The notes under the pieces are model-generated. The model saw nothing but the letters and a program-made list of their open reading frames with translations, made no database searches and was not told where the DNA came from. DNA of 23,466 nt. It comes from Melanopsichium pennsylvanicum. Lineage: Eukaryota; Basidiomycota; Ustilaginomycetes; Ustilaginales. The stretch is from assembly GCA_900208305.1 (NCBI GenBank), contig OAPG01000045.1, positions 1 to 23,466 on the forward strand. Direction: 5' to 3'. Below, one piece after another: positions 1-23,466 of the stretch (the stretch's first letter is position 1; each line of letters starts with the position of its first letter). The position numbers and the translations under genes are program-made.

Positions 1-139
1 TTTATATATTAGTATATTATTGTAATATACAAGTAAATTATATAAGGACCCGTACTTATAGAATATTGTAATTTATATGAACCAGAAAAAGGGTTAAAAA
101 TGCTACGCATTTTTTAGTACTTTTAATAATAGATATTTT

Positions 140-213
140 TGGAGAGAACAGGACTCGAACCTGCATCAGCATCCTTGCAAAGGAAGTATACTAACCAATT
201 GTAATATCTCCCC
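140..213 (-). tRNA. trnA: tRNA-Ala (UGC), left copy
   Basis: Mirror of 23316-23389, identical. Confidence 0.94.
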
Positions 214-904
214 AAATTTCATAAGACTATACCTATATAGTAAATAAAATAGAATAATATAAAGAAACTATAATGTGTCAATAAAATAGTCTATTTTTTA
301 TAGTAATAGTAAAACAAAAAATAGAATATTCACTCGAACTTATATAAAAAAGAACTCTTTTTTTACTACTAAATTAAAAAGTAGTGCAAAGGTAGTACAC
401 TAAATAACTATACTATGCCTTCTATTCAATATGAAAAATATCTTGTATCCCTTTATAACTCGCTATTATAAAAATGAGAAGAGAAATACATATATCTAGT
501 AATAAAACTAGTAATTATATGAACGGTAAATTCTTTTAAAATTCCTAATACATGGTACAAATTATGAATAGGATAATTAGAATTGTATGTGAAATTTTAT
601 AAGATAAGCTCCGGAAAAGATGTTTGAAATCCTTTTCTTTTTTCCCCTTCTTAAAAAAAAGTAGGCGCCAATTAAAATATTCTATTTTATTTCTTAAGGG
701 GGTAAATTAAAGTTTGATAAATAATTAAGGAACAAAGATAGTATTCATCTCCTGGTATATAGTGTGTAAAAAGGAATAGAATACCTTAAAATACACCGCC
801 ATTGATGAAATGATTTTAATTATTATTAAAAAATATTATAGTACATAAATTTATAGCTATTATCATTGTTGATATTTTTGTTTATCAATATAATTTGTGG
901 TATT
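214..904. other. Noncoding stretch after trnA (left)
   Basis: Mirror of 22625-23315 with several one-base homopolymer differences and a small C/A rearrangement at 314-316. No gene seen. Confidence 0.55.
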
Positions 905-910
905 TTATGT

Positions 911-983
911 ACAAATACAAATACAAATACAAATACAAATACAAATACAAATACAAATACAAATACAAATACAAATACAAATA
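911..983. repeat. (ACAAAT)n hexanucleotide tandem repeat (left)
   Basis: Mirror of 22546-22618 with the same unit number, about 12. Confidence 0.95.
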
Positions 984-1145
984 CCGACCTGTTTACTGAA
1001 GATAAACTGTCCTTTAGTAAAAATAACTAAGAATAGATTGAATTGCAAATGAAATTACTAGAATAAGTAGAGAATAAAATACTAGTTTAACAACAGTATT
1101 ATATGCGTTAAACATTTCAATATTATAATAATTCCTGTAGAAAGA

Positions 1146-1508
1146 TCACCGATTAGGACTAGGTTTATAATAAAACCACTTGACTTTTTCACAAATAGTC
1201 CAATAGCGGACGTGCGCGTATTCTATTTTAGTGGGCGGATAAGTAAAATATACTCGATAAATACCAATAAAACATAGTAGTACGATTTTAAATCCCTTTT
1301 TGGTAAATTTGTACAGGATTATTAACAATAAACATATCGAACACAAGCATCTGTAGAAAAGATTGTATAGCGCTTTTAGTGCATTATTAAACTCGTTAGC
1401 AATATCAGAAAAAATAGGGTAATAAATGTAAAGACATAGACTAGATACTAGGAGAACAATAAACAGAAAAATAAGAACTACTTTGTTAATTGAAATAAGA
1501 TTTAGCAT
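1146..1508 (-). CDS. Hydrophobic ORF of 120 codons, unknown (left copy, open frame)
   Basis: Starts MLNLISINKVVLIFLFIVLL and has two or three hydrophobic segments within the first 85 residues. The last 35 residues run through a G+C-rich patch (near 1207-1240) and look non-native. The right-arm copy lacks one T and is frameshifted after residue 59. I see no family motif. The N-terminus may be a remnant of another membrane ORF related to its neighbours. Confidence 0.35.
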   Translation of the reverse strand: MLNLISINKVVLIFLFIVLLVSSLCLYIYYPIFSDIANEFNNALKALYNLFYRCLCSICLLLIILYKFTKKGFKIVLLCFIGIYRVYFTYPPTKIEYAHVRYWTICEKVKWFYYKPSPNR

Positions 1509-1592
1509 TAGCCATTAACTATATTCTGATTAATTAGCTTCACTCTCTTTTAGTTCACTTACCGATGATGTACTAATTTTACTAAAATAATT

Positions 1593-2239
1593 TTAAGAAT
1601 ATAGCATAAAACTACAAATTAGAAAATATAATCCTGCTGTTGCTATAATATAAACTACAAAATTTAGAATCGTAAAAAAAGAAAGCCGCGCGCAAGCGCA
1701 AAAAGAAATCAAGTACATCTACATCTCTATTAGATGGTAGTCGATTACTGTCATTCGATTCCATCCAATTTAGCAGAAACGAATAAATAGAATCTAGAAA
1801 ACTAGTTGAATCTTCTAGAGGAGAGTGGATACTGTAACTGGTATTACTATTGTTACTGTTATCAGTATTATTATCTGTATTGATATCTGGCTTAGGTGTA
1901 ATCAGCTTGTTAGCACTGTTAGTATATATATATGGCTCTGTAGTATAAATTTGTTATTAATATAGCGAGCCGTATCCCTAAAGAATCACACTTCGGTTAA
2001 GAAACCGCTGACCATCAAAATAGTGCTGTATAACCTAGTGCAGTACCCTAAAATTTATATCCTAGTCCTCGTGGTGAAGAGGAAGACCATAGCTTATTAA
2101 TAAGAAATGGTATCGTAGATGGTATTAGATAATCTACAGGTACATTATAAACTGTATATTTAGTAAAAGCACTTGACACCTCTGCAATCGCAGCACCTGT
2201 TGTATCCTGATTTGATTGTGGTGCCAGTTCTTTAGTCAT
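1593..2239 (-). pseudogene. Decayed SPLE-motif membrane ORF, split by G+C cluster (left copy)
   Basis: Mirror of 21293-21937, two bases longer: the A runs beside the G+C cluster are 7 and 5 long here (near 1674-1680 and 1699-1703) against 6 and 4 on the right. The frame after the cluster therefore differs between arms, and both are broken. Confidence 0.63.
1684..1699 (-). repeat. G+C single-hairpin cluster inside decayed ORF, left
   Basis: Mirror of 21830-21845. The flanking A runs are each one base longer than on the right. Confidence 0.86.
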
Positions 2240-2320
2240 CTCATAAATTTTCTCATAAAAAAACAAAAACAAAAAAAACTTTTCGTTAGGTACTTTTATT
2301 CCTGTTGAACTAGAACTAAT

Positions 2321-2560
2321 TTACATATTTTTTATTGTTTCCTCTGCACGATATACAGCTTCAGCAATAAAGATGAGATTAAGTAGCATCCAAATTACAT
2401 ATAGAATTAAAAAAAAAACAAACAAAAAAAAAATAGGAATAGGCGACATAATTAGTTTAAGCATAGCATAAGTAATTTTGTTTATAGTTCCTGTAATTCC
2501 ACCTATACTGTAACAATGTTTTGCTCCAATAGAAATGTTGTAAAAAATAAATACAAACAT
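2321..2560 (-). CDS. Small hydrophobic ORF, unknown (left copy)
   Basis: Mirror of 20972-21211 with an identical 79-residue translation despite long T and A runs inside it. Same doubts as for the right copy. Confidence 0.4.
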   Translation of the reverse strand: MFVFIFYNISIGAKHCYSIGGITGTINKITYAMLKLIMSPIPIFFLFVFFLILYVIWMLLNLIFIAEAVYRAEETIKNM

Positions 2561-2778
2561 AAGTACTTAACATATTAGTACTGCTTGTGTATATTCTTTT
2601 TTAGAAAAATTGCAAAAATATCTTTCGAAATATCTCCGACAAAATTACAAGAATCGTTACAGAATGTCATACTATTTACAATCAGCTCCATTGGCATTAG
2701 TACTTTAAATGCTCTTGTCAAAAAAGTATCCCGTATTTACTTAATTTTGGTATACCTATATATAGGTATATAATTACA

Positions 2779-2867
2779 CGGACAAAAGGAGATTCGAACT
2801 CCTAAGGAAGTTTTTTATATTCCAGACAATTAGCAATCGCCTACACCTCGCCAATAGCGGTTTGTCC
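2779..2867 (-). tRNA. trnS: tRNA-Ser (GCU), left copy
   Basis: Mirror of 20665-20753, identical. Confidence 0.94.
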
Positions 2868-2885
2868 ATAAGTAACCTATATAAA

Positions 2886-2959
2886 GAAGGTATAACTCAG
2901 TTGGTTAGAGTGCGATACTTTTAATATCGACGTCGTAGGTTCGAGCCCTACTATCTTCA
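2886..2959 (+). tRNA. trnK: tRNA-Lys (UUU), left copy
   Basis: Acceptor GAAGGTA/TATCTTC, anticodon stem CGATA/TATCG, loop CTTTTAA (anticodon TTT), T arm GTAGG-TTCGAGC-CCTAC. It is the only tRNA of this arm on the plus strand, opposite to trnP and trnS on either side. Confidence 0.96.
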
Positions 2960-2967
2960 TATATTTT

Positions 2968-3038
2968 CTAGGATGAGTTGAATCGAACAACTATTTTCCC
3001 CACCAAAAGAGGAAGTCTTTCCTTTAGACGACATCCTA
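2968..3038 (-). tRNA. trnP: tRNA-Pro (UGG), left copy
   Basis: Mirror of 20494-20564, identical. Confidence 0.93.
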
Positions 3039-3152
3039 CTTTACTAGTATTCTTATTTTCATACTAATATAGTATTTACTAGTGTAACTATTTTTGTTTT
3101 TTTTCAACCATTCTCATTACCTACTAAAATCGAAGAATTTTATAAACCGGGG

Positions 3153-3171
3153 ATAAAATCTAATATTTTAT
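3153..3171. repeat. A+T hairpin (left mirror of 20361-20379)
   Basis: Same stem, loop CTAAT on the plus strand, beside the truncated trnP fragment. Confidence 0.85.
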
Positions 3172-3183
3172 CAGGGCAATGAT

Positions 3184-3207
3184 GTATTTCCTTTAGATGA
3201 CATCCTA
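3184..3207 (-). pseudogene. Truncated tRNA-Pro 5' fragment (left copy)
   Basis: Mirror of 20325-20348. Confidence 0.84.
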
Positions 3208-3304
3208 CATTCCCTATTTATAAAAAATAACTTGATAATTATAGTGGGCTTATAAAAATAGAATACTTTTAGGGCTACTTTTTTTCGGGAGAAAAAAGAA
3301 CAAA

Positions 3305-3343
3305 GCCGTAGGCAGCCGTAGGCAGCCGTATGCAGCCGTAGGC
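3305..3343. repeat. G+C-rich decamer tandem repeat (left)
   Basis: Mirror of 20189-20227: four units of GCCGTAGGCA, the third reading GCCGTATGCA. Confidence 0.92.
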
Positions 3344-3383
3344 GAAGATTTTATTAAAAAGTATGCGCAAGAAAACAACAAAA

Positions 3384-3395
3384 TTTTTGTTTTTG

Positions 3396-3426
<31 letters not shown>

Positions 3427-3440
3427 TTTATTTTTATTTT
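3384..3440. repeat. (TTTTTA)n hexanucleotide tandem repeat (left)
   Basis: Mirror of 20091-20148. One unit near 3421-3424 is TTTTA instead of TTTTTA, which accounts for the one-base offset between arms here. Confidence 0.94.
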
Positions 3441-3647
3441 CTACCGCGCCTATAAATAGATAATCACTATAATTAATCGTTTTCTATAGCACCTTTAATA
3501 CGTTTTATACTGATACTACTACAACTATTTTATTATTATTTCTATTAATGTATATAGCTTATTTATTTATAATATGAACTAACAAATAACTTTTCCAGAC
3601 ACAAGTTGAATTATTTGAATATAATAAGATTATATATATATTCAAAT

Positions 3648-3679
3648 ACCGCCCGCGCGCAAGCGCAGCGCAAGCGCAA
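3648..3679 (-). repeat. G+C double-hairpin cluster, copy 4 left
   Basis: Mirror of 19852-19883. Confidence 0.9.
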
Positions 3680-3730
3680 ATATCCTATTTTATTGGGCTG
3701 TATAGTATTTTCTATTATTTACAGTATTTT

Positions 3731-3801
3731 TGCCGACTACTAGAATCGAACTAGTGTCAAGTAATTACAAGTTACCTATTCTACCACTAAACTAAGTCGA
3801 C
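3731..3801 (-). tRNA. trnT: tRNA-Thr (UGU), left copy
   Basis: Mirror of 19730-19800, identical. Confidence 0.95.
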
Positions 3802-3941
3802 ATTTTTACCGCTAGTAAATCCGCAGTCATTTATTTCCTAATTATTATATATTAATTTATAGATTTAGTAGCGAATTTTATTATAATAGTATAAAACTAC
3901 TTTTTATTTTAATAGGCGGGCAGTAGTAGATCTAAACCTAC

Positions 3942-4012
3942 TGATCTCTAGGAGAATCGAACTCCTATTAGTAAAATGAAGATCTACTGTTTTACCTTTA
4001 AACTAAGAGACC
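3942..4012 (-). tRNA. trnE: tRNA-Glu (UUC), left copy
   Basis: Mirror of 19519-19589 with the same C at position 33. Confidence 0.84.
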
Positions 4013-4328
4013 TATACCTATATATATATACATAAATTTGTAACCATCCAGATTTATTAGTAGAGAAAATGAATCACAATTTATAAAGTAGTGACTATAA
4101 AATCTCTTATTTTCAAGGTCGCGTGTAAGCGCTGTTTTATTTTTAACCGCTAGTAATTTTATTAGGACTATACAAACACAAGCATTATGATATACAGAGT
4201 AATAAAGTATGATAGAATATCTATATATTCAACTATATGTTATTAAAATAGCGATAAAATTTTATGCGCTGGCCGATAAAAATGGAACATTTTGATTTTT
4301 TTAGAATAGAATTTTAAATACAAGGCTA

Positions 4329-4347
4329 ATAAAATCTAATATTTTAT
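4329..4347. repeat. A+T hairpin (left mirror of 19184-19202)
   Basis: Same stem, loop CTAAT on the plus strand. Confidence 0.85.
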
Positions 4348-4396
4348 AAGCGCTATTAAATTTAATTCCTAAAAAAAAAAAATGGATAAGAATTTA

Positions 4397-4417
4397 GGGG
4401 CCCTACGGGCGGGCCCC
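4397..4417. repeat. Strong G+C hairpin GGGGCCC/GGGCCCC (left)
   Basis: Mirror of 19114-19134, loop TACGGGC on the plus strand. Confidence 0.9.
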
Positions 4418-4467
4418 ATACCCATAAATTAATTCCTTTTTAAATAACCCGGCGATAATTATTAATT

Positions 4468-4540
4468 GAGTACATTCCAGGATTCGAACACTGGTCTAGC
4501 AGGACATGAGTCTGCTGTGCCACCTTTACACTAAAGTACT
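4468..4540 (-). tRNA. trnM: tRNA-Met (CAU), left copy
   Basis: Mirror of 18991-19063, identical sequence including the irregular acceptor and T stems. Confidence 0.84.
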
Positions 4541-4645
4541 TTATATATTTACTTTTTTCTATTCTTATACTAACCATATTTACACAGACCGCGCCAATAA
4601 AAATGAAAATTTTTATATCAAATAAAAAAAGTTACTATGTAACGA

Positions 4646-4693
4646 TTGAAAATATAGAGACTATCTCTATCTATTTTCAATTGAAAGGGGAGT
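4646..4693 (-). terminator. Possible 3' end signal after the nad1 chimera (left)
   Basis: Mirror of 18838-18885. Confidence 0.5.
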
Positions 4694-4719
4694 ATAATGT
4701 AATTTCTTCAATTAATTGT

Positions 4720-5727
4720 TTAATTGAACATAAAAGGGTGGTAGAATAGAAAGTTTAGCCCTGCAATAATTGTTGAAATGTTTACAGCTACAAACATTTT
4801 TAGCAGAATAATCAGATTATTTGCCATTTTATCTGAAGGAATAAATTTGCTAAGTAGTGTAGACATCTTAACGATACTATCTCGATTTTTTACACTGTAT
4901 CGGAAGATAGTAATTAGAATAAAGCTATAAAGTACAGTAATTGCACTTACTGCTACTAGAAATACAATAATATTGTATTGGAAGTGTAGAACGTCAATAG
5001 CGCTTAGTTCTGTGAAATCAGTTGCAGGAACTCTATTTCGTAGATCCTGTTTCACAAAATCAGGAAGAAGTGAAAATAGCCAATCAAAAATAGACCCGTT
5101 TTCCTCTAGTGGCGAATTAATCTGATGATTGCTATTGGTAGTACTACTACCGATATTAAGGGAACCTGATAGTTTAGTATCACCAACTTCAACACTAGTA
5201 CTAAAACCCTTAGAAATTGCTTCCTTCATTCGCGAATGAACCCATCCAAGAGTAGGTTTTGTCACTTCATGCATTGAGATAGCACTAGTTGTAGTAGTAG
5301 TCATAATAGTTGTAATCGCTGCTACTTTACCAGCAGTGCCAGACTTCAGTTGAAAGACTTTGTACATACCATATAGGCTAATAGAAGCCCACGCACCATT
5401 AATAATTCGACTATTCCACTTGTCAGTTATAGATACAGTCCCATTCTTTGCATTTGTAGCTAGGGCTTCAGTCTCTTGACAGTAGATAGGATCAAACCAT
5501 ACATTATAGAAGAGAGTAAATGTTGTAAAGCCTAGGATTACTACTACAACCATTAGAGGTACTGCAAATGGTTGTAGTAGAGCATAGTATCCAACAACAT
5601 TAGGTCCAATTTGTCGTTGCATTGATCCCATTACTTTTCGTTCAATTACTGTCATAAAAGCAACACTTAGTAGAATTGGAACAAGAACTACTAGAATCTC
5701 TAGTAGATTATATAGAATTGAAAGCAT
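4720..5727 (-). CDS. Chimeric ORF: nad1 N-terminus fused to unknown SPLE-motif membrane protein (left copy)
   Basis: Mirror of 17804-18811 with an identical 335-residue product. The nad1-like part covers 5563-5727 on the minus strand and the unrelated tail 4720-5562. The intact frame in both arms suggests either recent duplication or selection on the fused protein. Confidence 0.84.
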
Positions 5728-5828
5728 TTTTAAGTTTTATTTTACTGCGTTACTAATTTTACTAATTACTAATCTAATATCTAGATTATTTAAAGTAAAT
5801 ACGCACGTTAATAAATCTATACTTAATT

Positions 5829-5860
5829 ACCGCCCGTGCGCAAGCGCAGCGCAAGCGCAA
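5829..5860 (-). repeat. G+C double-hairpin cluster, copy 3 left
   Basis: Mirror of 17671-17702. Confidence 0.9.
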
Positions 5861-6109
5861 AATGTAGACTAAATTGCGCGCGGGCTCTTAGATAGATTAA
5901 TCTATTTTATTATAGACTAACCTACTATATTAATTTCTCTTTTATTTAAATGAAAGTAATAAGTATAGATAGGAATAAATCAAAAAGAGTAAGAGTAAGT
6001 ACTCTATCCTATACAAGAATAGGAATATTATAGTAGAGTTTTTTTTGCTATCGACGAGTTGTAAATTTAACTAGTTAAATTAAGTTGGCCTGAAAATAGA
6101 AGATTTAAC

Positions 6110-6145
6110 AACTAAATGAGTGAAAGGGGAGTAAATCACTTAGTT
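6110..6145 (-). terminator. Possible 3' end signal after nad4 (left)
   Basis: Mirror of 17386-17421. Confidence 0.45.
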
Positions 6146-6258
6146 AAACTAATTTTAATTAAGTTTAAAAGTGTAGTTACAAAAATAAAATCAAATTTAT
6201 TAAGACCTATCTAATTTTGTATTTTAGTAATAACTATTTTCCTTTTTTAGTCTGACTT

Positions 6259-7713
6259 TTAATTGATTGAAAAAAGTAGTCCAGATGTTGAAGCATGAAC
6301 TGAATCAAGGATAATATTTGGGAAAATTCCAAATACTACGGCAACAAATAGAAGAGGTAGTAGAAGCATAAACTCTCGTCGAGTAAGATCTGTAGTGTAG
6401 TTTAGGTATTTACTCCAAGCACCAAAGGCAATTCGGTTATATAGCCAAATAGAATAAGCAGCACTTAGAACAATACCGGAACTTCCTAGTACAGCAAATA
6501 CAGGGTTTCGTTGGAAGGCACCCGCTAGACATAGGAATTCACCAGCCCAATTAGCACTTAGAGGTACTGCAGCATTAAAAATTGTAAATACAAAGAACAG
6601 AATTGAGAATAGTGGCATATAAGCAGTCATACCTCGGTAGTACCGAATAGTTCGTGTATGGTATCGATCATATAGAACTCCACCTACTAGAATAAATAGT
6701 GCTGGACTAACAACTCCATGAGCAATACTTAGTAGTAGAGCACCATCAATACCTTGGATAGTATTACTGAATAGTCCTAGTACTACTACAGCCATATGAC
6801 CAATAGAAGAGTAAGCAACTAGAGCTTTGAAATCAGTTTGTCGTAGTGTAGCTAGTGATGCATAAATTAGAGTAATTACTGCAATAGTTTGTACTAGTGG
6901 AGAGAAGTATGATGTTGCATCTGGTAGAAATTGAATTAGAATTCGCATGTATCCATATGTAGCTAGTTTTAGGATAAGACCAGCTAGAATAACACTACCA
7001 GCTAGTGGAGCTTCAGCATGAGCTCGAGGTAGCCATACGTGGAATGGTAGTAGTGGTGTTTTGATAGCCATACTAATAAATACAGCTAGCCATAGTAGTT
7101 TTTGTGATTCTAGATTAATTTCAGATAGTGATACTACTTGAAAATCTGTTGAACCAACATTATAGTAAATAACTAGGAAAGCTAGTAGCATAAATAGTGA
7201 ACCAAATAGTGTATAAAGGAACAGTAGGAAAGCAGCTCGTACTCGTGTAGCACTACCACCCCAAATACCTACAATTAGGAATAGAGGAATTAGTACACTT
7301 TCAAAGAATACATAGAATAGTAGAATATCTAGTACAATAAATACCGCAATTAGTAGTGTTTCTAGTACTAGGAAACACATAAGGAAGTATTTAAGTTGTT
7401 GTTTAATATTATCCCAATTACTTAGAATACAAATTGGTGTAATAAATGTTGTTAGTAGAACAAAATAAAGTGAGATACCATCTACCCCAATGTGTAGGTG
7501 ACAGAAATTAACTTGGTTAAATTCTTGCGTAAATTGATATTCACTAGTACTTGAATCAAATTCACCCCATAGTACAATACTTAGAACAAAATTAATTAGT
7601 GATGTTCCTAGTGCTACTCGTTTCATTTGTGACTCTGATTGTTCTGTGTTTCCTTGCATAGGTGCTAGCATTAGAGCACCCACTAGAGGAATAATAAGTA
7701 GTAGTGTTAGCAT
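6259..7713 (-). CDS. nad4: NADH dehydrogenase subunit 4 (left copy)
   Basis: Mirror of the right-arm nad4 with an identical 484-residue product and the same codon restriction. Start ATG is at 7711-7713 and stop TAA at 6259-6261. It is transcribed away from the palindrome centre, as are nad2, nad3 and the nad1 part of this arm. Confidence 0.98.
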   Translation of the reverse strand: MLTLLLIIPLVGALMLAPMQGNTEQSESQMKRVALGTSLINFVLSIVLWGEFDSSTSEYQFTQEFNQVNFCHLHIGVDGISLYFVLLTTFITPICILSNWDNIKQQLKYFLMCFLVLETLLIAVFIVLDILLFYVFFESVLIPLFLIVGIWGGSATRVRAAFLLFLYTLFGSLFMLLAFLVIYYNVGSTDFQVVSLSEINLESQKLLWLAVFISMAIKTPLLPFHVWLPRAHAEAPLAGSVILAGLILKLATYGYMRILIQFLPDATSYFSPLVQTIAVITLIYASLATLRQTDFKALVAYSSIGHMAVVVLGLFSNTIQGIDGALLLSIAHGVVSPALFILVGGVLYDRYHTRTIRYYRGMTAYMPLFSILFFVFTIFNAAVPLSANWAGEFLCLAGAFQRNPVFAVLGSSGIVLSAAYSIWLYNRIAFGAWSKYLNYTTDLTRREFMLLLPLLFVAVVFGIFPNIILDSVHASTSGLLFSIN

Positions 7714-8000
7714 TTTCTTTTTTCATTTTTTTATTGTTGATGTCCTTCTTTATGGGCTAATAAAAAGTATATTCTTTTTTTATCCCTTATCTCTTTTATT
7801 ATTTTCTGTTCTGCTGGGCGCGGGCGCAGAGAACAGTACTTTTTATTTATTAGTCGGAGGATACTTAATATAATTTATACCTACGACTGCTGCCTACCGC
7901 AGCCCCCCCCGAAAGTTTATAGCATAAGTTATCTAAGCCCGCCCCAATAAAAAAGAGTATTATAGGCGCTACTCCATTTTACGACGGCTATAAATTGATA

Positions 8001-8028
8001 ACCGTGCGCAAGCGCAGCGCAAGCGCAA
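8001..8028 (-). repeat. G+C double-hairpin cluster, copy 2 left
   Basis: Mirror of 15503-15530. Confidence 0.9.
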
Positions 8029-8133
8029 TCATTTATTTTCTAACTTATATAATAAATATAGTAATATAATAAAAGCATAAGTATACCTATACAATACATA
8101 AAATAAGGAAATTAATAAAAAATAGAAAGATTT

Positions 8134-8165
8134 ACCGCCCGCGCGCAAGCGCAGCGCAAGCGCAA
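8134..8165 (-). repeat. G+C double-hairpin cluster, copy 1 left
   Basis: Mirror of 15366-15397. Confidence 0.9.
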
Positions 8166-8306
8166 TCTTTTGTCCTATCTTTTATTATGTAGATTAAAAA
8201 AACCCCTTTATAAAATTTTCTAGCGGCGGGCAGCAGGTAAGAGGGCGCCAATAAAAAGATAGGTTTTTTTATTTATTAAAATTAGTCGCGCCAGCGCAGA
8301 ATGCTA

Positions 8307-11738: not shown

Positions 11739-11739
11739 T

Positions 11740-15205: not shown

Positions 15206-15224
15206 ATAAAATATTCTATTTTAT
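15206..15224. repeat. A+T hairpin ATAAAAT-ATTCT-ATTTTAT (right)
   Basis: Perfect seven-pair stem with a five-base loop, followed by a G+C patch (GCGCTGGCGCG). Related A+T hairpins recur at 19184-19202 and 20361-20379. Confidence 0.85.
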
Positions 15225-15365
15225 TAGCATTCTGCGCTGGCGCGACTAATTTTAATAAATAAAAAAACCTATCTTTTTATTGGCGCCCTCTTACCTGCTG
15301 CCCGCCGCTAGAAAATTTTATAAAGGGGTTTTTTTAATCTACATAATAAAAGATAGGACAAAAGA

Positions 15366-15397
15366 TTGCGCTTGCGCTGCGCTTGCGCGCGGGCGGT
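15366..15397 (+). repeat. G+C double-hairpin cluster, copy 1 right
   Basis: Two copies of the 10-base hairpin GCGCTTGCGC separated by one T, followed by GCGGGCGGT. Each 10-mer can fold as GCG-CTTG-CGC, giving a double hairpin. It sits between the nad3 remnant and nad4. Confidence 0.9.
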
Positions 15398-15502
15398 AAA
15401 TCTTTCTATTTTTTATTAATTTCCTTATTTTATGTATTGTATAGGTATACTTATGCTTTTATTATATTACTATATTTATTATATAAGTTAGAAAATAAAT
15501 GA

Positions 15503-15530
15503 TTGCGCTTGCGCTGCGCTTGCGCACGGT
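15503..15530 (+). repeat. G+C double-hairpin cluster, copy 2 right
   Basis: Same double hairpin as copy 1, ending in ACGGT instead of the longer GCGGGCGGT tail. 105 bases from copy 1. Confidence 0.9.
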
Positions 15531-15817
15531 TATCAATTTATAGCCGTCGTAAAATGGAGTAGCGCCTATAATACTCTTTTTTATTGGGGCGGGCTTAGAT
15601 AACTTATGCTATAAACTTTCGGGGGGGGCTGCGGTAGGCAGCAGTCGTAGGTATAAATTATATTAAGTATCCTCCGACTAATAAATAAAAAGTACTGTTC
15701 TCTGCGCCCGCGCCCAGCAGAACAGAAAATAATAAAAGAGATAAGGGATAAAAAAAGAATATACTTTTTATTAGCCCATAAAGAAGGACATCAACAATAA
15801 AAAAATGAAAAAAGAAA

Positions 15818-17272
15818 ATGCTAACACTACTACTTATTATTCCTCTAGTGGGTGCTCTAATGCTAGCACCTATGCAAGGAAACACAGAACAATCAGAGTC
15901 ACAAATGAAACGAGTAGCACTAGGAACATCACTAATTAATTTTGTTCTAAGTATTGTACTATGGGGTGAATTTGATTCAAGTACTAGTGAATATCAATTT
16001 ACGCAAGAATTTAACCAAGTTAATTTCTGTCACCTACACATTGGGGTAGATGGTATCTCACTTTATTTTGTTCTACTAACAACATTTATTACACCAATTT
16101 GTATTCTAAGTAATTGGGATAATATTAAACAACAACTTAAATACTTCCTTATGTGTTTCCTAGTACTAGAAACACTACTAATTGCGGTATTTATTGTACT
16201 AGATATTCTACTATTCTATGTATTCTTTGAAAGTGTACTAATTCCTCTATTCCTAATTGTAGGTATTTGGGGTGGTAGTGCTACACGAGTACGAGCTGCT
16301 TTCCTACTGTTCCTTTATACACTATTTGGTTCACTATTTATGCTACTAGCTTTCCTAGTTATTTACTATAATGTTGGTTCAACAGATTTTCAAGTAGTAT
16401 CACTATCTGAAATTAATCTAGAATCACAAAAACTACTATGGCTAGCTGTATTTATTAGTATGGCTATCAAAACACCACTACTACCATTCCACGTATGGCT
16501 ACCTCGAGCTCATGCTGAAGCTCCACTAGCTGGTAGTGTTATTCTAGCTGGTCTTATCCTAAAACTAGCTACATATGGATACATGCGAATTCTAATTCAA
16601 TTTCTACCAGATGCAACATCATACTTCTCTCCACTAGTACAAACTATTGCAGTAATTACTCTAATTTATGCATCACTAGCTACACTACGACAAACTGATT
16701 TCAAAGCTCTAGTTGCTTACTCTTCTATTGGTCATATGGCTGTAGTAGTACTAGGACTATTCAGTAATACTATCCAAGGTATTGATGGTGCTCTACTACT
16801 AAGTATTGCTCATGGAGTTGTTAGTCCAGCACTATTTATTCTAGTAGGTGGAGTTCTATATGATCGATACCATACACGAACTATTCGGTACTACCGAGGT
16901 ATGACTGCTTATATGCCACTATTCTCAATTCTGTTCTTTGTATTTACAATTTTTAATGCTGCAGTACCTCTAAGTGCTAATTGGGCTGGTGAATTCCTAT
17001 GTCTAGCGGGTGCCTTCCAACGAAACCCTGTATTTGCTGTACTAGGAAGTTCCGGTATTGTTCTAAGTGCTGCTTATTCTATTTGGCTATATAACCGAAT
17101 TGCCTTTGGTGCTTGGAGTAAATACCTAAACTACACTACAGATCTTACTCGACGAGAGTTTATGCTTCTACTACCTCTTCTATTTGTTGCCGTAGTATTT
17201 GGAATTTTCCCAAATATTATCCTTGATTCAGTTCATGCTTCAACATCTGGACTACTTTTTTCAATCAATTAA
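15818..17272 (+). CDS. nad4: NADH dehydrogenase subunit 4 (right copy)
   Basis: Complex I antiporter-like membrane subunit, 484 aa, normal length for fungi. Visible hallmarks: HIGVDGISLYFVLLTTFI at about 74-91, FFESVLIPLFLIVGIWGG at 136-153 with the conserved Glu 138, IKTPLLPFHVWLPRAHAEAP at 217-236 with Lys 218, and LRQTDFKALVAYSSIGHM with its lysine in the second half. ATG at 15818 is taken because it gives the standard N-terminus (MLTLLLIIPLVGALML). Leu is written almost wholly as CTA, with some CTT and a few CTG; I found no TTA, no AGA/AGG, no ATA and no TGA in the whole gene. About 130 bases downstream is the motif ACTCCCCTTTCA, shared with the nad1 region. Confidence 0.98.
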   Translation: MLTLLLIIPLVGALMLAPMQGNTEQSESQMKRVALGTSLINFVLSIVLWGEFDSSTSEYQFTQEFNQVNFCHLHIGVDGISLYFVLLTTFITPICILSNWDNIKQQLKYFLMCFLVLETLLIAVFIVLDILLFYVFFESVLIPLFLIVGIWGGSATRVRAAFLLFLYTLFGSLFMLLAFLVIYYNVGSTDFQVVSLSEINLESQKLLWLAVFISMAIKTPLLPFHVWLPRAHAEAPLAGSVILAGLILKLATYGYMRILIQFLPDATSYFSPLVQTIAVITLIYASLATLRQTDFKALVAYSSIGHMAVVVLGLFSNTIQGIDGALLLSIAHGVVSPALFILVGGVLYDRYHTRTIRYYRGMTAYMPLFSILFFVFTIFNAAVPLSANWAGEFLCLAGAFQRNPVFAVLGSSGIVLSAAYSIWLYNRIAFGAWSKYLNYTTDLTRREFMLLLPLLFVAVVFGIFPNIILDSVHASTSGLLFSIN

Positions 17273-17385
17273 AAGTCAGACTAAAAAAGGAAAATAGTTA
17301 TTACTAAAATACAAAATTAGATAGGTCTTAATAAATTTGATTTTATTTTTGTAACTACACTTTTAAACTTAATTAAAATTAGTTT

Positions 17386-17421
17386 AACTAAGTGATTTAC
17401 TCCCCTTTCACTCATTTAGTT
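17386..17421 (+). terminator. Possible 3' end signal after nad4 (right)
   Basis: ACTCCCCTTTCA at 17399-17410 lies within an inverted repeat: AACTAAGTGA (17386-17395) pairs with TCACTCATTTAGTT (17408-17421) with a four-base bulge. It shares the 12-mer with the nad1 chimera 3' region. Confidence 0.45.
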
Positions 17422-17670
17422 GTTAAATCTTCTATTTTCAGGCCAACTTAATTTAACTAGTTAAATTTACAACTCGTCGATAGCAAAAAAAACTCTACTA
17501 TAATATTCCTATTCTTGTATAGGATAGAGTACTTACTCTTACTCTTTTTGATTTATTCCTATCTATACTTATTACTTTCATTTAAATAAAAGAGAAATTA
17601 ATATAGTAGGTTAGTCTATAATAAAATAGATTAATCTATCTAAGAGCCCGCGCGCAATTTAGTCTACATT

Positions 17671-17702
17671 TTGCGCTTGCGCTGCGCTTGCGCACGGGCG
17701 GT
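17671..17702 (+). repeat. G+C double-hairpin cluster, copy 3 right
   Basis: Double hairpin with tail ACGGGCGGT, between nad4 and the nad1 chimera. A partial piece (GCCCGCGCGCAA) lies 15 bases upstream at 17646-17657. Confidence 0.9.
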
Positions 17703-17803
17703 AATTAAGTATAGATTTATTAACGTGCGTATTTACTTTAAATAATCTAGATATTAGATTAGTAATTAGTAAAATTAGTAACGCAGTAAAATAAAACTTA
17801 AAA

Positions 17804-18811
17804 ATGCTTTCAATTCTATATAATCTACTAGAGATTCTAGTAGTTCTTGTTCCAATTCTACTAAGTGTTGCTTTTATGACAGTAATTGAACGAAAAGTAA
17901 TGGGATCAATGCAACGACAAATTGGACCTAATGTTGTTGGATACTATGCTCTACTACAACCATTTGCAGTACCTCTAATGGTTGTAGTAGTAATCCTAGG
18001 CTTTACAACATTTACTCTCTTCTATAATGTATGGTTTGATCCTATCTACTGTCAAGAGACTGAAGCCCTAGCTACAAATGCAAAGAATGGGACTGTATCT
18101 ATAACTGACAAGTGGAATAGTCGAATTATTAATGGTGCGTGGGCTTCTATTAGCCTATATGGTATGTACAAAGTCTTTCAACTGAAGTCTGGCACTGCTG
18201 GTAAAGTAGCAGCGATTACAACTATTATGACTACTACTACAACTAGTGCTATCTCAATGCATGAAGTGACAAAACCTACTCTTGGATGGGTTCATTCGCG
18301 AATGAAGGAAGCAATTTCTAAGGGTTTTAGTACTAGTGTTGAAGTTGGTGATACTAAACTATCAGGTTCCCTTAATATCGGTAGTAGTACTACCAATAGC
18401 AATCATCAGATTAATTCGCCACTAGAGGAAAACGGGTCTATTTTTGATTGGCTATTTTCACTTCTTCCTGATTTTGTGAAACAGGATCTACGAAATAGAG
18501 TTCCTGCAACTGATTTCACAGAACTAAGCGCTATTGACGTTCTACACTTCCAATACAATATTATTGTATTTCTAGTAGCAGTAAGTGCAATTACTGTACT
18601 TTATAGCTTTATTCTAATTACTATCTTCCGATACAGTGTAAAAAATCGAGATAGTATCGTTAAGATGTCTACACTACTTAGCAAATTTATTCCTTCAGAT
18701 AAAATGGCAAATAATCTGATTATTCTGCTAAAAATGTTTGTAGCTGTAAACATTTCAACAATTATTGCAGGGCTAAACTTTCTATTCTACCACCCTTTTA
18801 TGTTCAATTAA
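17804..18811 (+). CDS. Chimeric ORF: nad1 N-terminus fused to unknown SPLE-motif membrane protein (right copy)
   Basis: Residues 1-55 are a clear complex I subunit 1 start: first membrane helix, [22 protein letters not shown] and LLQPFA. Real nad1 continues with a DALKLLLKE-like stretch and about 260 more residues. Here residues 56-335 are unrelated: a membrane segment at 56-76, a Thr/Ser-rich middle, INSPLEE at 203-209, [11 protein letters not shown], then membrane segments near 252-276 and 303-328. No LAGLIDADG, GIY-YIG or reverse transcriptase motif is seen, so it is not a standard intron ORF read-through. No nad1 remainder is found downstream before trnM. Codon use is mostly like the host genes, with an occasional AGA. 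A decayed relative of the tail lies at 21293-21937. It could be a nad1 5' fragment captured by the tail gene, or a first exon whose remainder lies elsewhere. Confidence 0.85.
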
Positions 18812-18837
18812 ACAATTAATTGAAGAAATTACATTAT

Positions 18838-18885
18838 ACTCCCCTTTCAATTGAAAATAGATAGAGATAGTCTCTATATTTTCAA
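18838..18885 (+). terminator. Possible 3' end signal after the nad1 chimera (right)
   Basis: ACTCCCCTTTCA at 18838-18849, then a hairpin at 18851-18885 whose arms TTGAAAATA(GA)TAGAGA and TCTCTATATTTTCAA pair apart from a two-base bulge. The 12-mer also occurs after nad4. The role in RNA 3' processing or termination is inferred. Confidence 0.5.
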
Positions 18886-18990
18886 TCGTTACATAGTAAC
18901 TTTTTTTATTTGATATAAAAATTTTCATTTTTATTGGCGCGGTCTGTGTAAATATGGTTAGTATAAGAATAGAAAAAAGTAAATATATAA

Positions 18991-19063
18991 AGTACTTTAG
19001 TGTAAAGGTGGCACAGCAGACTCATGTCCTGCTAGACCAGTGTTCGAATCCTGGAATGTACTC
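18991..19063 (+). tRNA. trnM: tRNA-Met (CAU), right copy
   Basis: Cloverleaf with D arm GTGT/GCAC and anticodon loop CTCATGT (anticodon CAT). The acceptor stem has a T-T mismatch at the sixth pair and the T stem closes as CCAG(T)G/CCTGG with a bulged T. Exact ends are uncertain by a base. Elongator, initiator or Ile-type CAU use cannot be told apart here. Confidence 0.85.
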
Positions 19064-19113
19064 AATTAATAATTATCGCCGGGTTATTTAAAAAGGAATT
19101 AATTTATGGGTAT

Positions 19114-19134
19114 GGGGCCCGCCCGTAGGGCCCC
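19114..19134. repeat. Strong G+C hairpin GGGGCCC/GGGCCCC (right)
   Basis: Perfect seven-pair all-G+C stem around the loop GCCCGTA, 50 bases after trnM. It could be a cluster insertion or an RNA-processing or termination structure. Confidence 0.9.
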
Positions 19135-19183
19135 TAAATTCTTATCCATTTTTTTTTTTTAGGAATTAAATTTAATAGCGCTT

Positions 19184-19202
19184 ATAAAATATTAGATTTT
19201 AT
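19184..19202. repeat. A+T hairpin ATAAAAT-ATTAG-ATTTTAT (right)
   Basis: Same seven-pair stem with loop ATTAG, preceded by AGCGCTT, between trnM and trnE. Confidence 0.85.
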
Positions 19203-19518
19203 TAGCCTTGTATTTAAAATTCTATTCTAAAAAAATCAAAATGTTCCATTTTTATCGGCCAGCGCATAAAATTTTATCGCTATTTTAATAACATATAGTT
19301 GAATATATAGATATTCTATCATACTTTATTACTCTGTATATCATAATGCTTGTGTTTGTATAGTCCTAATAAAATTACTAGCGGTTAAAAATAAAACAGC
19401 GCTTACACGCGACCTTGAAAATAAGAGATTTTATAGTCACTACTTTATAAATTGTGATTCATTTTCTCTACTAATAAATCTGGATGGTTACAAATTTATG
19501 TATATATATATAGGTATA

Positions 19519-19589
19519 GGTCTCTTAGTTTAAAGGTAAAACAGTAGATCTTCATTTTACTAATAGGAGTTCGATTCTCCTAGAGATCA
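19519..19589 (+). tRNA. trnE: tRNA-Glu (UUC), right copy
   Basis: Acceptor GGTCTCT/AGAGATC, D arm GTTT/AAAC, anticodon stem GTAGA/TTTAC, T arm GGAG-TTCGATT-CTCC. The seven-base loop is TCTTCAT, giving anticodon TTC but a C at position 33, where T is nearly universal. Shifting the loop to give a TCA (Trp) anticodon breaks the stem. Confidence 0.85.
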
Positions 19590-19729
19590 GTAGGTTTAGA
19601 TCTACTACTGCCCGCCTATTAAAATAAAAAGTAGTTTTATACTATTATAATAAAATTCGCTACTAAATCTATAAATTAATATATAATAATTAGGAAATAA
19701 ATGACTGCGGATTTACTAGCGGTAAAAAT

Positions 19730-19800
19730 GTCGACTTAGTTTAGTGGTAGAATAGGTAACTTGTAATTACTTGACACTAGTTCGATTCTAGTAGTCGGCA
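19730..19800 (+). tRNA. trnT: tRNA-Thr (UGU), right copy
   Basis: Acceptor GTCGACT/AGTCGGC, anticodon stem GGTAA/TTACT, loop CTTGTAA (anticodon TGT), T loop TTCGATT, discriminator A. All arms pair well. Confidence 0.95.
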
Positions 19801-19851
19801 AAAATACTGTAAATAATAGAAAATACTATACAGCCCAATAAAATAGGATAT

Positions 19852-19883
19852 TTGCGCTTGCGCTGCGCTTGCGCGCGGGCGGT
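19852..19883 (+). repeat. G+C double-hairpin cluster, copy 4 right
   Basis: Double hairpin with tail GCGGGCGGT, between trnT and trnP, directly after an AATAAAATAGGATAT stretch. Confidence 0.9.
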
Positions 19884-20090
19884 ATTTGAATATATATATA
19901 ATCTTATTATATTCAAATAATTCAACTTGTGTCTGGAAAAGTTATTTGTTAGTTCATATTATAAATAAATAAGCTATATACATTAATAGAAATAATAATA
20001 AAATAGTTGTAGTAGTATCAGTATAAAACGTATTAAAGGTGCTATAGAAAACGATTAATTATAGTGATTATCTATTTATAGGCGCGGTAG

Positions 20091-20148
20091 AAAATAAAAA
20101 TAAAAATAAAAATAAAAATAAAAATAAAAATAAAAACAAAAACAAAAA
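20091..20148. repeat. (AAAAAT)n hexanucleotide tandem repeat (right)
   Basis: AAAAT, six AAAAAT units, then two AAAAAC units. The left arm has one unit shortened by a base. Confidence 0.94.
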
Positions 20149-20188
20149 TTTTGTTGTTTTCTTGCGCATACTTTTTAATAAAATCTTC

Positions 20189-20227
20189 GCCTACGGCTGC
20201 ATACGGCTGCCTACGGCTGCCTACGGC
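20189..20227. repeat. G+C-rich decamer tandem repeat (right)
   Basis: Four units of about GCCTACGGCT (complement GCCGTAGGCA), one with a single change (GCATACGGCT). It is unusually G+C-rich for this DNA and lies 40 bases from the (AAAAAT)n repeat. Confidence 0.92.
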
Positions 20228-20324
20228 TTTGTTCTTTTTTCTCCCGAAAAAAAGTAGCCCTAAAAGTATTCTATTTTTATAAGCCCACTATAATTATCAA
20301 GTTATTTTTTATAAATAGGGAATG

Positions 20325-20348
20325 TAGGATGTCATCTAAAGGAAATAC
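20325..20348 (+). pseudogene. Truncated tRNA-Pro 5' fragment (right copy)
   Basis: TAGGATGTC-TCTAAAGGAAA repeats the first 24 bases of trnP (20494-20517) with two substitutions: the acceptor 5' strand and D arm only. No matching anticodon or T arm follows; an ATAAAAT...ATTTTAT hairpin (20361-20379) begins 12 bases later. Confidence 0.85.
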
Positions 20349-20360
20349 ATCATTGCCCTG

Positions 20361-20379
20361 ATAAAATATTAGATTTTAT
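20361..20379. repeat. A+T hairpin ATAAAAT-ATTAG-ATTTTAT (right, second)
   Basis: Identical 19-mer to 19184-19202, adjacent to the truncated trnP fragment. Confidence 0.85.
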
Positions 20380-20493
20380 CCCCGGTTTATAAAATTCTTC
20401 GATTTTAGTAGGTAATGAGAATGGTTGAAAAAAAACAAAAATAGTTACACTAGTAAATACTATATTAGTATGAAAATAAGAATACTAGTAAAG

Positions 20494-20564
20494 TAGGATG
20501 TCGTCTAAAGGAAAGACTTCCTCTTTTGGTGGGGAAAATAGTTGTTCGATTCAACTCATCCTAG
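20494..20564 (+). tRNA. trnP: tRNA-Pro (UGG), right copy
   Basis: Acceptor TAGGATG/CATCCTA, anticodon stem TCCTC/GGGGA, loop TTTTGGT (anticodon TGG), T arm AGTTG-TTCGATT-CAACT. The genome-encoded discriminator would be G. A truncated copy of its 5' part lies 170 bases upstream. Confidence 0.93.
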
Positions 20565-20572
20565 AAAATATA

Positions 20573-20646
20573 TGAAGATAGTAGGGCTCGAACCTACGAC
20601 GTCGATATTAAAAGTATCGCACTCTAACCAACTGAGTTATACCTTC
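20573..20646 (-). tRNA. trnK: tRNA-Lys (UUU), right copy
   Basis: Mirror of 2886-2959. It lies antisense between trnP (8 bases away) and trnS (18 bases away), which would require either two-strand transcription or a separate promoter. Confidence 0.96.
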
Positions 20647-20664
20647 TTTATATAGGTTACTTAT

Positions 20665-20753
20665 GGACAAACCGCTATTGGCGAGGTGTAGGCGATTGCT
20701 AATTGTCTGGAATATAAAAAACTTCCTTAGGAGTTCGAATCTCCTTTTGTCCG
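20665..20753 (+). tRNA. trnS: tRNA-Ser (GCU), right copy
   Basis: Acceptor GGACAAA/TTTGTCC, anticodon stem GGCGA/TTGTC, loop TTGCTAA (anticodon GCT), a long variable arm of about 20 bases as expected for class II serine tRNA, and T arm GGAG-TTCGAAT-CTCC. Confidence 0.94.
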
Positions 20754-20971
20754 TGTAATTATATACCTATATATAGGTATACCAAAATTAAGTAAATACG
20801 GGATACTTTTTTGACAAGAGCATTTAAAGTACTAATGCCAATGGAGCTGATTGTAAATAGTATGACATTCTGTAACGATTCTTGTAATTTTGTCGGAGAT
20901 ATTTCGAAAGATATTTTTGCAATTTTTCTAAAAAAGAATATACACAAGCAGTACTAATATGTTAAGTACTT

Positions 20972-21211
20972 ATGTTTGTATTTATTTTTTACAACATTTC
21001 TATTGGAGCAAAACATTGTTACAGTATAGGTGGAATTACAGGAACTATAAACAAAATTACTTATGCTATGCTTAAACTAATTATGTCGCCTATTCCTATT
21101 TTTTTTTTGTTTGTTTTTTTTTTAATTCTATATGTAATTTGGATGCTACTTAATCTCATCTTTATTGCTGAAGCTGTATATCGTGCAGAGGAAACAATAA
21201 AAAATATGTAA
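20972..21211 (+). CDS. Small hydrophobic ORF, unknown (right copy)
   Basis: 79 codons from ATG. Residues about 38-70 form a strong membrane stretch (PIPIFFLFVFFLILYVIW...), followed by a short acidic and basic tail (AEAVYRAEET). Codon use differs from nad4: TTG, TTA and several ATA codons occur. The membrane stretch and acidic tail loosely resemble residues 56-90 of the nad1-fused tail, and the neighbouring decayed ORF resembles the rest of that tail, so this may be the broken front end of a related gene. I do not recognise a family, and expression is doubtful. Confidence 0.4.
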   Translation: MFVFIFYNISIGAKHCYSIGGITGTINKITYAMLKLIMSPIPIFFLFVFFLILYVIWMLLNLIFIAEAVYRAEETIKNM

Positions 21212-21292
21212 ATTAGTTCTAGTTCAACAGGAATAAAAGTACCTAACGAAAAGTTTTTTTTGTTTTTGTTTTTTTATGAGAAAATTTATGAG

Positions 21293-21937
21293 ATGACTAA
21301 AGAACTGGCACCACAATCAAATCAGGATACAACAGGTGCTGCGATTGCAGAGGTGTCAAGTGCTTTTACTAAATATACAGTTTATAATGTACCTGTAGAT
21401 TATCTAATACCATCTACGATACCATTTCTTATTAATAAGCTATGGTCTTCCTCTTCACCACGAGGACTAGGATATAAATTTTAGGGTACTGCACTAGGTT
21501 ATACAGCACTATTTTGATGGTCAGCGGTTTCTTAACCGAAGTGTGATTCTTTAGGGATACGGCTCGCTATATTAATAACAAATTTATACTACAGAGCCAT
21601 ATATATATACTAACAGTGCTAACAAGCTGATTACACCTAAGCCAGATATCAATACAGATAATAATACTGATAACAGTAACAATAGTAATACCAGTTACAG
21701 TATCCACTCTCCTCTAGAAGATTCAACTAGTTTTCTAGATTCTATTTATTCGTTTCTGCTAAATTGGATGGAATCGAATGACAGTAATCGACTACCATCT
21801 AATAGAGATGTAGATGTACTTGATTTCTTTTGCGCTTGCGCGCGGCTTTCTTTTTTACGATTCTAAATTTTGTAGTTTATATTATAGCAACAGCAGGATT
21901 ATATTTTCTAATTTGTAGTTTTATGCTATATTCTTAA
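21293..21937 (+). pseudogene. Decayed SPLE-motif membrane ORF, split by G+C cluster (right copy)
   Basis: Starting at ATG 21293 (MTKELAPQSN) it reads to TAG 21482, then has further stops. An open frame from 21579 gives a Asn/Thr/Ser-rich stretch and HSPLEDSTSFLDSIYSFLL (SPLE at 21708-21719), then RLPSNRDVDVLDF. At 21830-21845 a 16-base G+C hairpin cluster interrupts the frame; beyond it a different frame resumes with FTILNFVVYIIATAGLYFLI to TAA at 21935-21937. The order (N/S/T-rich region, SPLE, SIFD/SFLD-like stretch, R-x-P, DVL, membrane helix) parallels residues 195-276 of the nad1-fused tail, so I call the two paralogous. Function unknown. From memory only, SPLE motifs before C-terminal membrane helices occur in unassigned fungal mitochondrial ORFs. 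Confidence 0.65.
21830..21845 (+). repeat. G+C single-hairpin cluster inside decayed ORF, right
   Basis: TTGCGCTTGCGCGCGG: one hairpin and part of the tail of the family consensus. It interrupts the SPLE-motif ORF between DVLDF and FTILNF, so it is very likely an insertion. Confidence 0.88.
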
Positions 21938-22021
21938 AATTATTTTAGTAAAATTAGTACATCATCGGTAAGTGAACTAAAAGAGAGTGAAGCTAATTAA
22001 TCAGAATATAGTTAATGGCTA

Positions 22022-22383
22022 ATGCTAAATCTTATTTCAATTAACAAAGTAGTTCTTATTTTTCTGTTTATTGTTCTCCTAGTATCTAGTCTATGTCTTT
22101 ACATTTATTACCCTATTTTTTCTGATATTGCTAACGAGTTTAATAATGCACTAAAAGCGCTATACAATCTTTTCTACAGATGCTTGTGTTCGATATGTTA
22201 TTGTTAATAATCCTGTACAAATTTACCAAAAAGGGATTTAAAATCGTACTACTATGTTTTATTGGTATTTATCGAGTATATTTTACTTATCCGCCCACTA
22301 AAATAGAATACGCGCACGTCCGCTATTGGACTATTTGTGAAAAAGTCAAGTGGTTTTATTATAAACCTAGTCCTAATCGGTGA
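22022..22383 (+). pseudogene. Frameshifted copy of the 120-codon hydrophobic ORF (right arm)
   Basis: Same sequence as minus-strand 1146-1508 but with two Ts at 22198-22199 where the left arm has three, so the frame stops at 22205-22207 after 61 codons; the rest continues in another frame from 22180. This is the clearest coding difference between arms, and may be either real or a homopolymer sequencing error. Confidence 0.5.
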
Positions 22384-22624
22384 TCTTTCTACAGGAATTA
22401 TTATAAATATTGAAATGTTTAACGCATATAATACTGTTGTTAAACTAGTATTTTATTCTCTACTTATTCTAGTAATTTCATTTGCAATTCAATCTATTCT
22501 TAGTTATTTTACTAAAGGACAGTTTATCTTCAGTAAACAGGTCGGTATTTGTATTTGTATTTGTATTTGTATTTGTATTTGTATTTGTATTTGTATTTGT
22601 ATTTGTATTTGTATTTGTACATAA
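22337..22624 (+). pseudogene. Hydrophobic fragment running into (TATTTG)n repeat (right arm)
   Basis: From GTG 22337 the frame gives FIINLVLIGDLSTGIIINIE and VVKLVFYSLLILVISFAIQ, a plausible membrane segment with host-like CTA codons, and then an artificial Ile-Cys repeat encoded by the hexamer. In the left arm one additional T (A run 1019-1023) stops the frame before the repeat. I regard this as the remains of a membrane ORF, perhaps the end of the one starting at 22022, not as an expressed gene. Confidence 0.35.
22546..22618. repeat. (TATTTG)n hexanucleotide tandem repeat (right)
   Basis: About 12 perfect units of TATTTG. A hexamer repeat keeps every frame open, so ORFs crossing it are artefactually long on both strands. 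Confidence 0.95.
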
Positions 22625-23315
22625 AATACCACAAATTATATTGATAAACAAAAATATCAACAATGATAATAGCTATAAATTTATGTACTATAATATTTTT
22701 TTAATAATAATTAAAATCATTTCATCAATGGCGGTGTATTTTAAGGTATTCTATTCCTTTTTACACACTATATACCAGGAGATGAATACTATCTTTGTTC
22801 CTTAATTATTTATCAAACTTTAATTTACCCCCTTAAGAAATAAAATAGAATATTTTAATTGGCGCCTACTTTTTTTAAGAAGGGGAAAAAAGAAAAGGAT
22901 TTCAAACATCTTTTCCGGAGCTTATCTTATAAAATTTCACATACAATTCTAATTATCCTATTCATAATTTGTACCATGTATTAGGAATTTTAAAAGAATT
23001 TACCGTTCATATAATTACTAGTTTTATTACTAGATATATGTATTTCTCTTCTCATTTTTTATAATAGCGAGTTATAAAGGGATACAAGATATTTTCATAT
23101 TGAATAGAAGGCATAGTATAGTTATTTAGTGTACTACCTTTGCACTACTTTTTAATTTAGTAGTAAAAAAAGAGTTCTTTTTTATATAAGTTCGAGTGAA
23201 TATTCTATTTTTGTGTTTACTATTACTATAAAAAATAGACTATTTTATTGACACATTATAGTTTCTTTATATTATTCTATTTTATTTACTATATAGGTAT
23301 AGTCTTATGAAATTT
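22625..23315. other. Noncoding stretch before trnA (right)
   Basis: A+T-rich. I see one hairpin-like AAAAT-AGAAT-ATTTT followed by TGGCGCC near 22845-22865, homopolymer runs, and no gene. Confidence 0.55.
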
Positions 23316-23389
23316 GGGGAGATATTACAATTGGTTAGTATACTTCCTTTGCAAGGATGCTGATGCAGGTTCGAGTCCTGTTCTCTCCA
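23316..23389 (+). tRNA. trnA: tRNA-Ala (UGC), right copy
   Basis: Acceptor GGGGAGA/TCTCTCC, anticodon stem CTTCC/GGATG with one T-T mismatch, loop TTTGCAA (anticodon TGC), T arm CAGG-TTCGAGT-CCTG, discriminator A. Confidence 0.94.
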
Positions 23390-23466
23390 AAAATATCTAT
23401 TATTAAAAGTACTAAAAAAATGCGTAGCATTTTTAAACCCTTTTTCTGGTTCATATAAATTACAAT

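Follow-up and report, generated by a model that had tools for sequence, protein, structure and literature searches.

Judged from the assembled sequence, contig C45 is very probably a fold-back chimera (a template plus its complement) that became a contig and not a structure carried by the fungus. This contig makes up the entire window, i.e., the whole 23,466-nt stretch of DNA that was analyzed, and belongs to an assembly of 61 contigs and 21,109,315 bases. Comparison of the window with its own reverse strand by BLAST yielded a single match, of positions 65 to 23466 against 23466 to 65, with 99.78% identity. An earlier note on this DNA had described a giant near-perfect palindrome with reverse-complement arms around a 52-base spacer, and both features were recovered, the arms having a length of 11,675 nt apiece and the spacer being placed between them as follows.

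Positions 65 to 11739, forward strand: left arm, mtDNA running from tRNA-Ala to a truncated 5' part of nad2 (self-match; match to C35 and C42)
Positions 11740 to 11791, no strand assigned: 52-nt spacer at the turn, an error-rich reverse copy of the flank of the nad2 break, of ~43 nt (edit count, local score)
Positions 11792 to 23466, reverse strand: right arm, the reverse-complement copy of the left arm (self-match)

The turn lies at 0.501 of the contig, and the arms are equal in length to within 64 nt; no counterpart exists for the leftmost 64 bases, and the contig ends there and at position 23466. Sixteen alignment columns differ between the arms. Fourteen of these fall at positions 93 to 1700, in the outer 1.7 kb, and are mostly single bases within A or T runs, while the others are located at 3419, where one base is missing from the alignment (a gap), and at 11728, a mismatch whose right-arm counterpart, 11803, is 12 nt from the turn. 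Over their inner 8,360 nt, the arms were 100% identical (rounded). The palindrome is real in the assembled letters and far beyond chance. Both arms also contain the 6-mer TACAAA, repeated in a short tandem array (910 to 984 and 22545 to 22619).

Pfam searches supported a nad1 5' piece, nad4, nad3, and nad2, in line with the four nad genes or parts per arm of the earlier note.

Positions 4720 to 5727, reverse strand: open frame that has just a 5' portion of nad1 at its start (PF00146, positions 2 to 47 only)
Positions 6259 to 7713, reverse strand: nad4 (PF00361, E = 5.5e-75; 98% to Ustilago [Mycosarcoma] maydis)
Positions 9445 to 10164, reverse strand: nad3, extended by a long C-terminal addition (PF00507, E = 4e-27)
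Positions 10164 to 11738, reverse strand: nad2, truncated by the turn at its 5' end, with an open frame of 524 codons (Pfam and frame comparison)
Positions 11792 to 13367, forward strand: second truncated copy of nad2, open frame of 528 codons (Pfam and frame comparison)

The nad2 frame has 554 codons in eight uncut places, compared to the 524 and 528 codons in the window, indicating that both copies in C45 are without the true 5' end; at uncut places in C28 and C58, the nad2 frames are broken. In other contigs, full-length nad1 is located past the genuine start of nad2. The minus-strand frame at 4720 to 5727 has 335 codons and matches no Pfam family beyond the nad1 5' end, the nad3 frame at 9445 to 10164 has ~125 extra codons past its Pfam domain (16 to 113 of 239), and a nad3-like fragment at 8322 to 8612, with a 59-nt stretch that is 85% alike, had no Pfam match. 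With the default settings of ARAGORN, six tRNAs were detected in the left arm and the same six in the right arm, where one also falls within a spurious tmRNA call. Six of the seven tRNAs per arm that had been claimed were borne out; the seventh, a tRNA-Met at 4468 to 4540, was called with one of three further option sets only, and this set dropped tRNA-Ser. Among the best 120 of 7,973 matches of the nad4 protein, the level of identity was 98% to U. maydis and Sporisorium reilianum and 96% to Ustilago bromivora; within the same 120, records without an organism name reached 99%, and a 99% record labelled Vibrio presumably represents contamination. The arms thus consist of ordinary mtDNA, of the type found in an Ustilaginaceae-like fungus.

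The junction itself was used to query the genome (window positions 11600 to 11930). Ten other places were detected in nine contigs (C25, C27, C28, C29, C32, C35, C39 [twice], C42, and C58). Each matched the left arm up to position 11738, and the right arm on the other strand, and none of these 10 places in the same assembly matched across the turn. Seven stretches were readable at the break (C25, C27, C29, C32, C35, C42, and C58) and exhibited an identical straight continuation, with C58 ending 16 nt past the break; the straight path leads beyond nad2 to full-length nad1 and then to cox1. C35 and C42 matched the 9,020 nt at positions 2719 to 11738 with 100% identity (rounded), with lengths differing by one and two bases, and 13 differences between C45 and C42 were found in the first 1,700 nt. 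The match to C35 and C42 was used in place of a comparison of this part of the left arm with the joined mtDNA map described below, in which zero differences arise by construction because the map stretch at 2719 to 11738 is the window.

The sequence at the turn was of a different quality from that of the arms. Read on the minus strand, the spacer differed from the straight nad2 flank by 10 edits in 52 nt, compared to a minimum of 16 and a mean of 22 edits for 2,000 random mtDNA places, and its local alignment score was 62, with a shuffled maximum of 38. The loop at the turn amounts to ~43 nt that are normally present after the break in nad2. A junction of ~80% accuracy between near-identical arms suggested that normal reads had polished the arms and that hardly any had covered the turn, which would have the quality of one or a few raw reads. 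No remnant of a SMRTbell or nanopore adapter was detected at the turn of the window, where all four adapter scores were below the 95% shuffle value. Among 18 of the 25 turns found in the assembly (see below), 4 of 72 adapter scores exceeded this value, which is about the number expected by chance, and none was convincing.

Overlaps between C42, the window, C25, C24, and C34 produced a circular map of 74,062 nt (74.06 kb). Three joins were of 2,867 to 3,070 nt at 99.6 to 100% and that of C24 to C34 was of 1,407 nt at 99.86%, while the C25/C24 join was of 96 nt, 60 of them matched exactly, and the gene places in these two contigs had a constant offset of 2,306. C30 crosses the seam of the map, and no difference was found along 4.5 kb. 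The matches of C35, C42, and C25 to the map are in part comparisons of a contig with itself or with the window. When 52.9 kb of the 74.06-kb joined sequence was aligned with itself to detect repeats of at least 90 nt, no second nad2, nad3, or nad4 was found. The arm pieces that were clearly repeated in the map were short, i.e., a 177-nt tRNA-Ser piece, a 471-nt nad1 5' piece, and the 59-nt nad3-like piece (85%); the nad2 flank additionally had a weaker match, of 136 nt (81%). The suggestion that every gene in the window is duplicated was not upheld in the compared part of the map.

Large inverted repeats are reported for fungal mtDNA, e.g., in Malassezia (PMC10113387), and a stable repeat of this kind in a circular mtDNA, comparable to those of Malassezia or of chloroplasts, would account for the long and almost identical arms. 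Such a repeat is expected to have unique sequence between or beyond its arms, whereas the 52 nt between the arms of C45 copy the nad2 flank with many errors. Moreover, the junction was present in 0 of 10 other places, seven of which were examined and run straight, the 74.06-kb circular map closes, and no second nad2, nad3, or nad4 was found in the 52.9 kb of joined sequence. This explanation, which the earlier note had listed, is extremely improbable. Another of its readings was a linear mtDNA whose closed hairpin end had been read through; in C45, such a covalently closed end would have to be at nad2. A hairpin DNA end that is read through gives a template-complement read, so that the same read would be obtained from such an end in C45. 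The end would, however, sit inside nad2, which seven other contigs run through and continue beyond, the circular map closes, and 25 turns at many sites would require many ends; a hairpin end is likewise extremely improbable.

Two of the short repeats have inverted partners in the map.

Positions 2719 to 2895, no strand assigned: 177-nt repeat that contains tRNA-Ser(gct); its inverted partner (99.4%) lies upstream of cox1 (self-comparison)
Positions 5553 to 6023, no strand assigned: 471-nt repeat, nad1 5' piece, inverted partner near full nad1 (joined sequence 12387 to 12857), 98.7% (self-comparison)

The 177-nt repeat was crossed into an alternative arrangement by C35, C42, and C54 and the 471-nt repeat by C32, C58, and C61. 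The level of identity through the join was 99.8 to 99.96% for C35, C32, C61, and the examined join of C42, and scattered gaps were present at the crossing in C54 and C58. The crossings at both short inverted repeats look like real inversion isomers of the mtDNA, unlike the fold-backs. C35 was considered as a palindrome on the basis of its cox1 places and was rejected; it actually crosses the 177-nt repeat and has a unique center. An extra copy of tRNA-Ser(GCT) is reported for some U. maydis strains (PMC13028006).

The contigs of the assembly fell into two size classes, with C1 to C23 being of 0.3 to 2.6 Mb and the other 38 contigs of 15.7 to 55 kb. Telomere repeats (CCCTAA) were present at 21 of the 22 contig starts examined (C2 to C23, the exception being C6), and the large contigs look chromosome-like. 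Gene matches or sequence identified 36 of the 38 small contigs as mitochondrial; C33 and C40 had no mtDNA match in the two stretches sampled from each. One chromosome-size contig (C14, 304208 to 317108) contained 12.9 kb copied from the mtDNA (map positions 25365 to 38255, 99.8 to 99.98%), which either was inserted into the nuclear genome very recently or reflects a misjoin.

Fold-backs were searched for in the mitochondrial contigs by means of gene places in both orientations, followed by mapping of short stretches on the joined mtDNA. Twenty-five turns were detected in 22 of the 36 mitochondrial contigs, window included, of which seven came from a second round of mapping (C24, C36 [twice], C38, C39, C41, and C56), and 22 is a lower bound, the other 14 contigs having been seen via gene places and partial sequence only; the turn positions were set by hand from the map alignments, and the contigs with turns may not be independent. 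C30, C34, and C36 had two turns each. The arms near the turn were 72 to 98% alike in 17 of 20 fetched stretches, with loops counted as gaps. Individual contigs differed, in that the arms of C51 were noisy relative to the map (76 to 84%) and those of C57, C59, and C60 were at 98 to 100% up to the spacer, while C36a and C50 were at 97 to 99.8% to the map on both sides with a short spacer or none. The turn of C36a was nearly clean, and those of C38 and C39 contained long poly-A or poly-T runs. Some contigs had a noisier second arm and several had no such noise, the orientation of a contig being arbitrary; a loss of nanopore quality, as described in PMC7229812, fits the former group. The turn was located at 0.4 to 0.6 of the contig in 11 of 18 contigs compared and outside this range in 7, with several axes placed by hand and with C30, C32, C34, and C36 left out. 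The spacers of C30b, C47, C52, C59, and C60 exhibited no match to local mtDNA beyond shuffles, and the match for C57 was marginal, just above the 95% value. As five of these six other spacers are unlike local mtDNA, the reading of the C45 spacer does not carry over to them.

The turns were not distributed evenly. Six pairs of turns lay within 150 nt of each other, compared to 1.2 expected (p = 0.004; 5,000 random draws; five distances tried), and clustering faded at 2,000 nt (p = 0.18). This excess indicated that the turn sites are not purely random. One cluster (C52, C59, and C60) is located at 57.27 to 57.53 kb of the map and another (C47, C53, and C56) at 63.6 to 63.98 kb. Hairpin-primed turning was considered and rejected, with stems near the 25 turns having a mean of 8.24 and those at random sites a mean of 8.47. 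An 11-nt stem is present within the loops of C52, C59, and C60, between the fold points, and the spacers of these three contigs had no mutual likeness beyond shuffles, except for C52 versus C60, which was just above the 95% value.

Both clusters are in favor of a reading of C45 as a low-level head-to-head dimer of mtDNA that arose in the living fungus, either through fold-back replication or because broken ends were joined. The few nearly clean turns, e.g., that of C36a, also point in this direction, and single molecules of this type would look identical in a contig. Set against this are the many turn sites, most of them with a noisy spacer or adjoining noisy arms, the presence of the C45 junction in no other contig, and the equality of its arms to within 64 nt, which would be rare in a fragment drawn at random from a larger palindrome. 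It is unlikely that the living cell contains head-to-head dimers, and for C45 this origin is highly improbable. A broader version, in which the fungus makes real fold-back mtDNA at preferred sites (hot spots of replication or breakage) and the palindromic contigs represent head-to-head dimers that form a minor population, has only a slight chance of being correct.

The fold-back artefact, which the earlier note had placed last among four readings, was favored by the straight path elsewhere, the noisy spacer, and the 25 turns in the assembly. The second arm lies on the other strand at the same place within 200 nt, the turn is within 10% of the midpoint (at 0.501, as measured on the contig and not on a read), and the junction is absent from the other molecules at the site (0 of 10 places, as represented by contigs). 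We infer that one or a few long reads contained ~11.7 kb of one strand followed by the opposite strand of that fragment, the ~43-nt loop being present once in the chimeric read; near-equal arms are expected if both strands of one fragment were read. A possible source is a 3' end that folded back while the library was made or the DNA amplified and was then extended or joined; another is software that did not split the template from the complement. Very deep sequencing of the mtDNA may have provided enough of these reads for the assembler to emit separate contigs, whose arms would have been polished by normal reads, the turn being unpolishable.

Foldback artefacts are reported to form ~0.55 to 0.6% of nanopore genomic reads (Heinz et al., PMC12870357). 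The authors consider library making to be the most likely origin, poly-A is among the commonest foldback inserts in K562 samples, and a turn within 10% of the midpoint is filtered as an artefact. Three PacBio data sets are stated there to be virtually free of foldbacks, making this source less likely if the platform used here was PacBio. Palindromic reads are described as disturbing mitogenome or genome assembly in PMC13265396 and PMC6218980. A literature search, with most subscription journals outside its scope, found no report of palindromes in the assembly that contains C45.

These results indicated that a chromosome-level fungal assembly can contain approximately twenty false palindromic mitochondrial contigs, which could pass for inverted repeats, gene duplications, or ends of a linear mtDNA. 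Clean arms, a dirty turn, and a straight path in other contigs constitute a cheap check that does not require reads.

C45 shares with the inverted repeats of Malassezia-type mtDNA the two identical reversed arms but differs from them in having no unique sequence between the arms, a turn inside a gene, and other contigs that run straight. The chimeras of whole-genome amplification, as described for Pacasus (PMC6218980) and for tardigrade mitogenomes (PMC13265396), are similar in being palindromic long products that spoil assembly and in having several turns per molecule, as do C30, C34, and C36; unlike that amplified DNA, there was no sign of amplification here, and the large contigs look chromosome-like. 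Whereas the foldbacks of Heinz, Meyerson, and Li (2026; PMC12870357) are reads, those described here are finished contigs, examined among the mitochondrial ones only. As in those reads, a strand is followed by its own reverse complement from the same place, with a turn near the middle, no recognizable adapter, and poly-A inserts in some cases.
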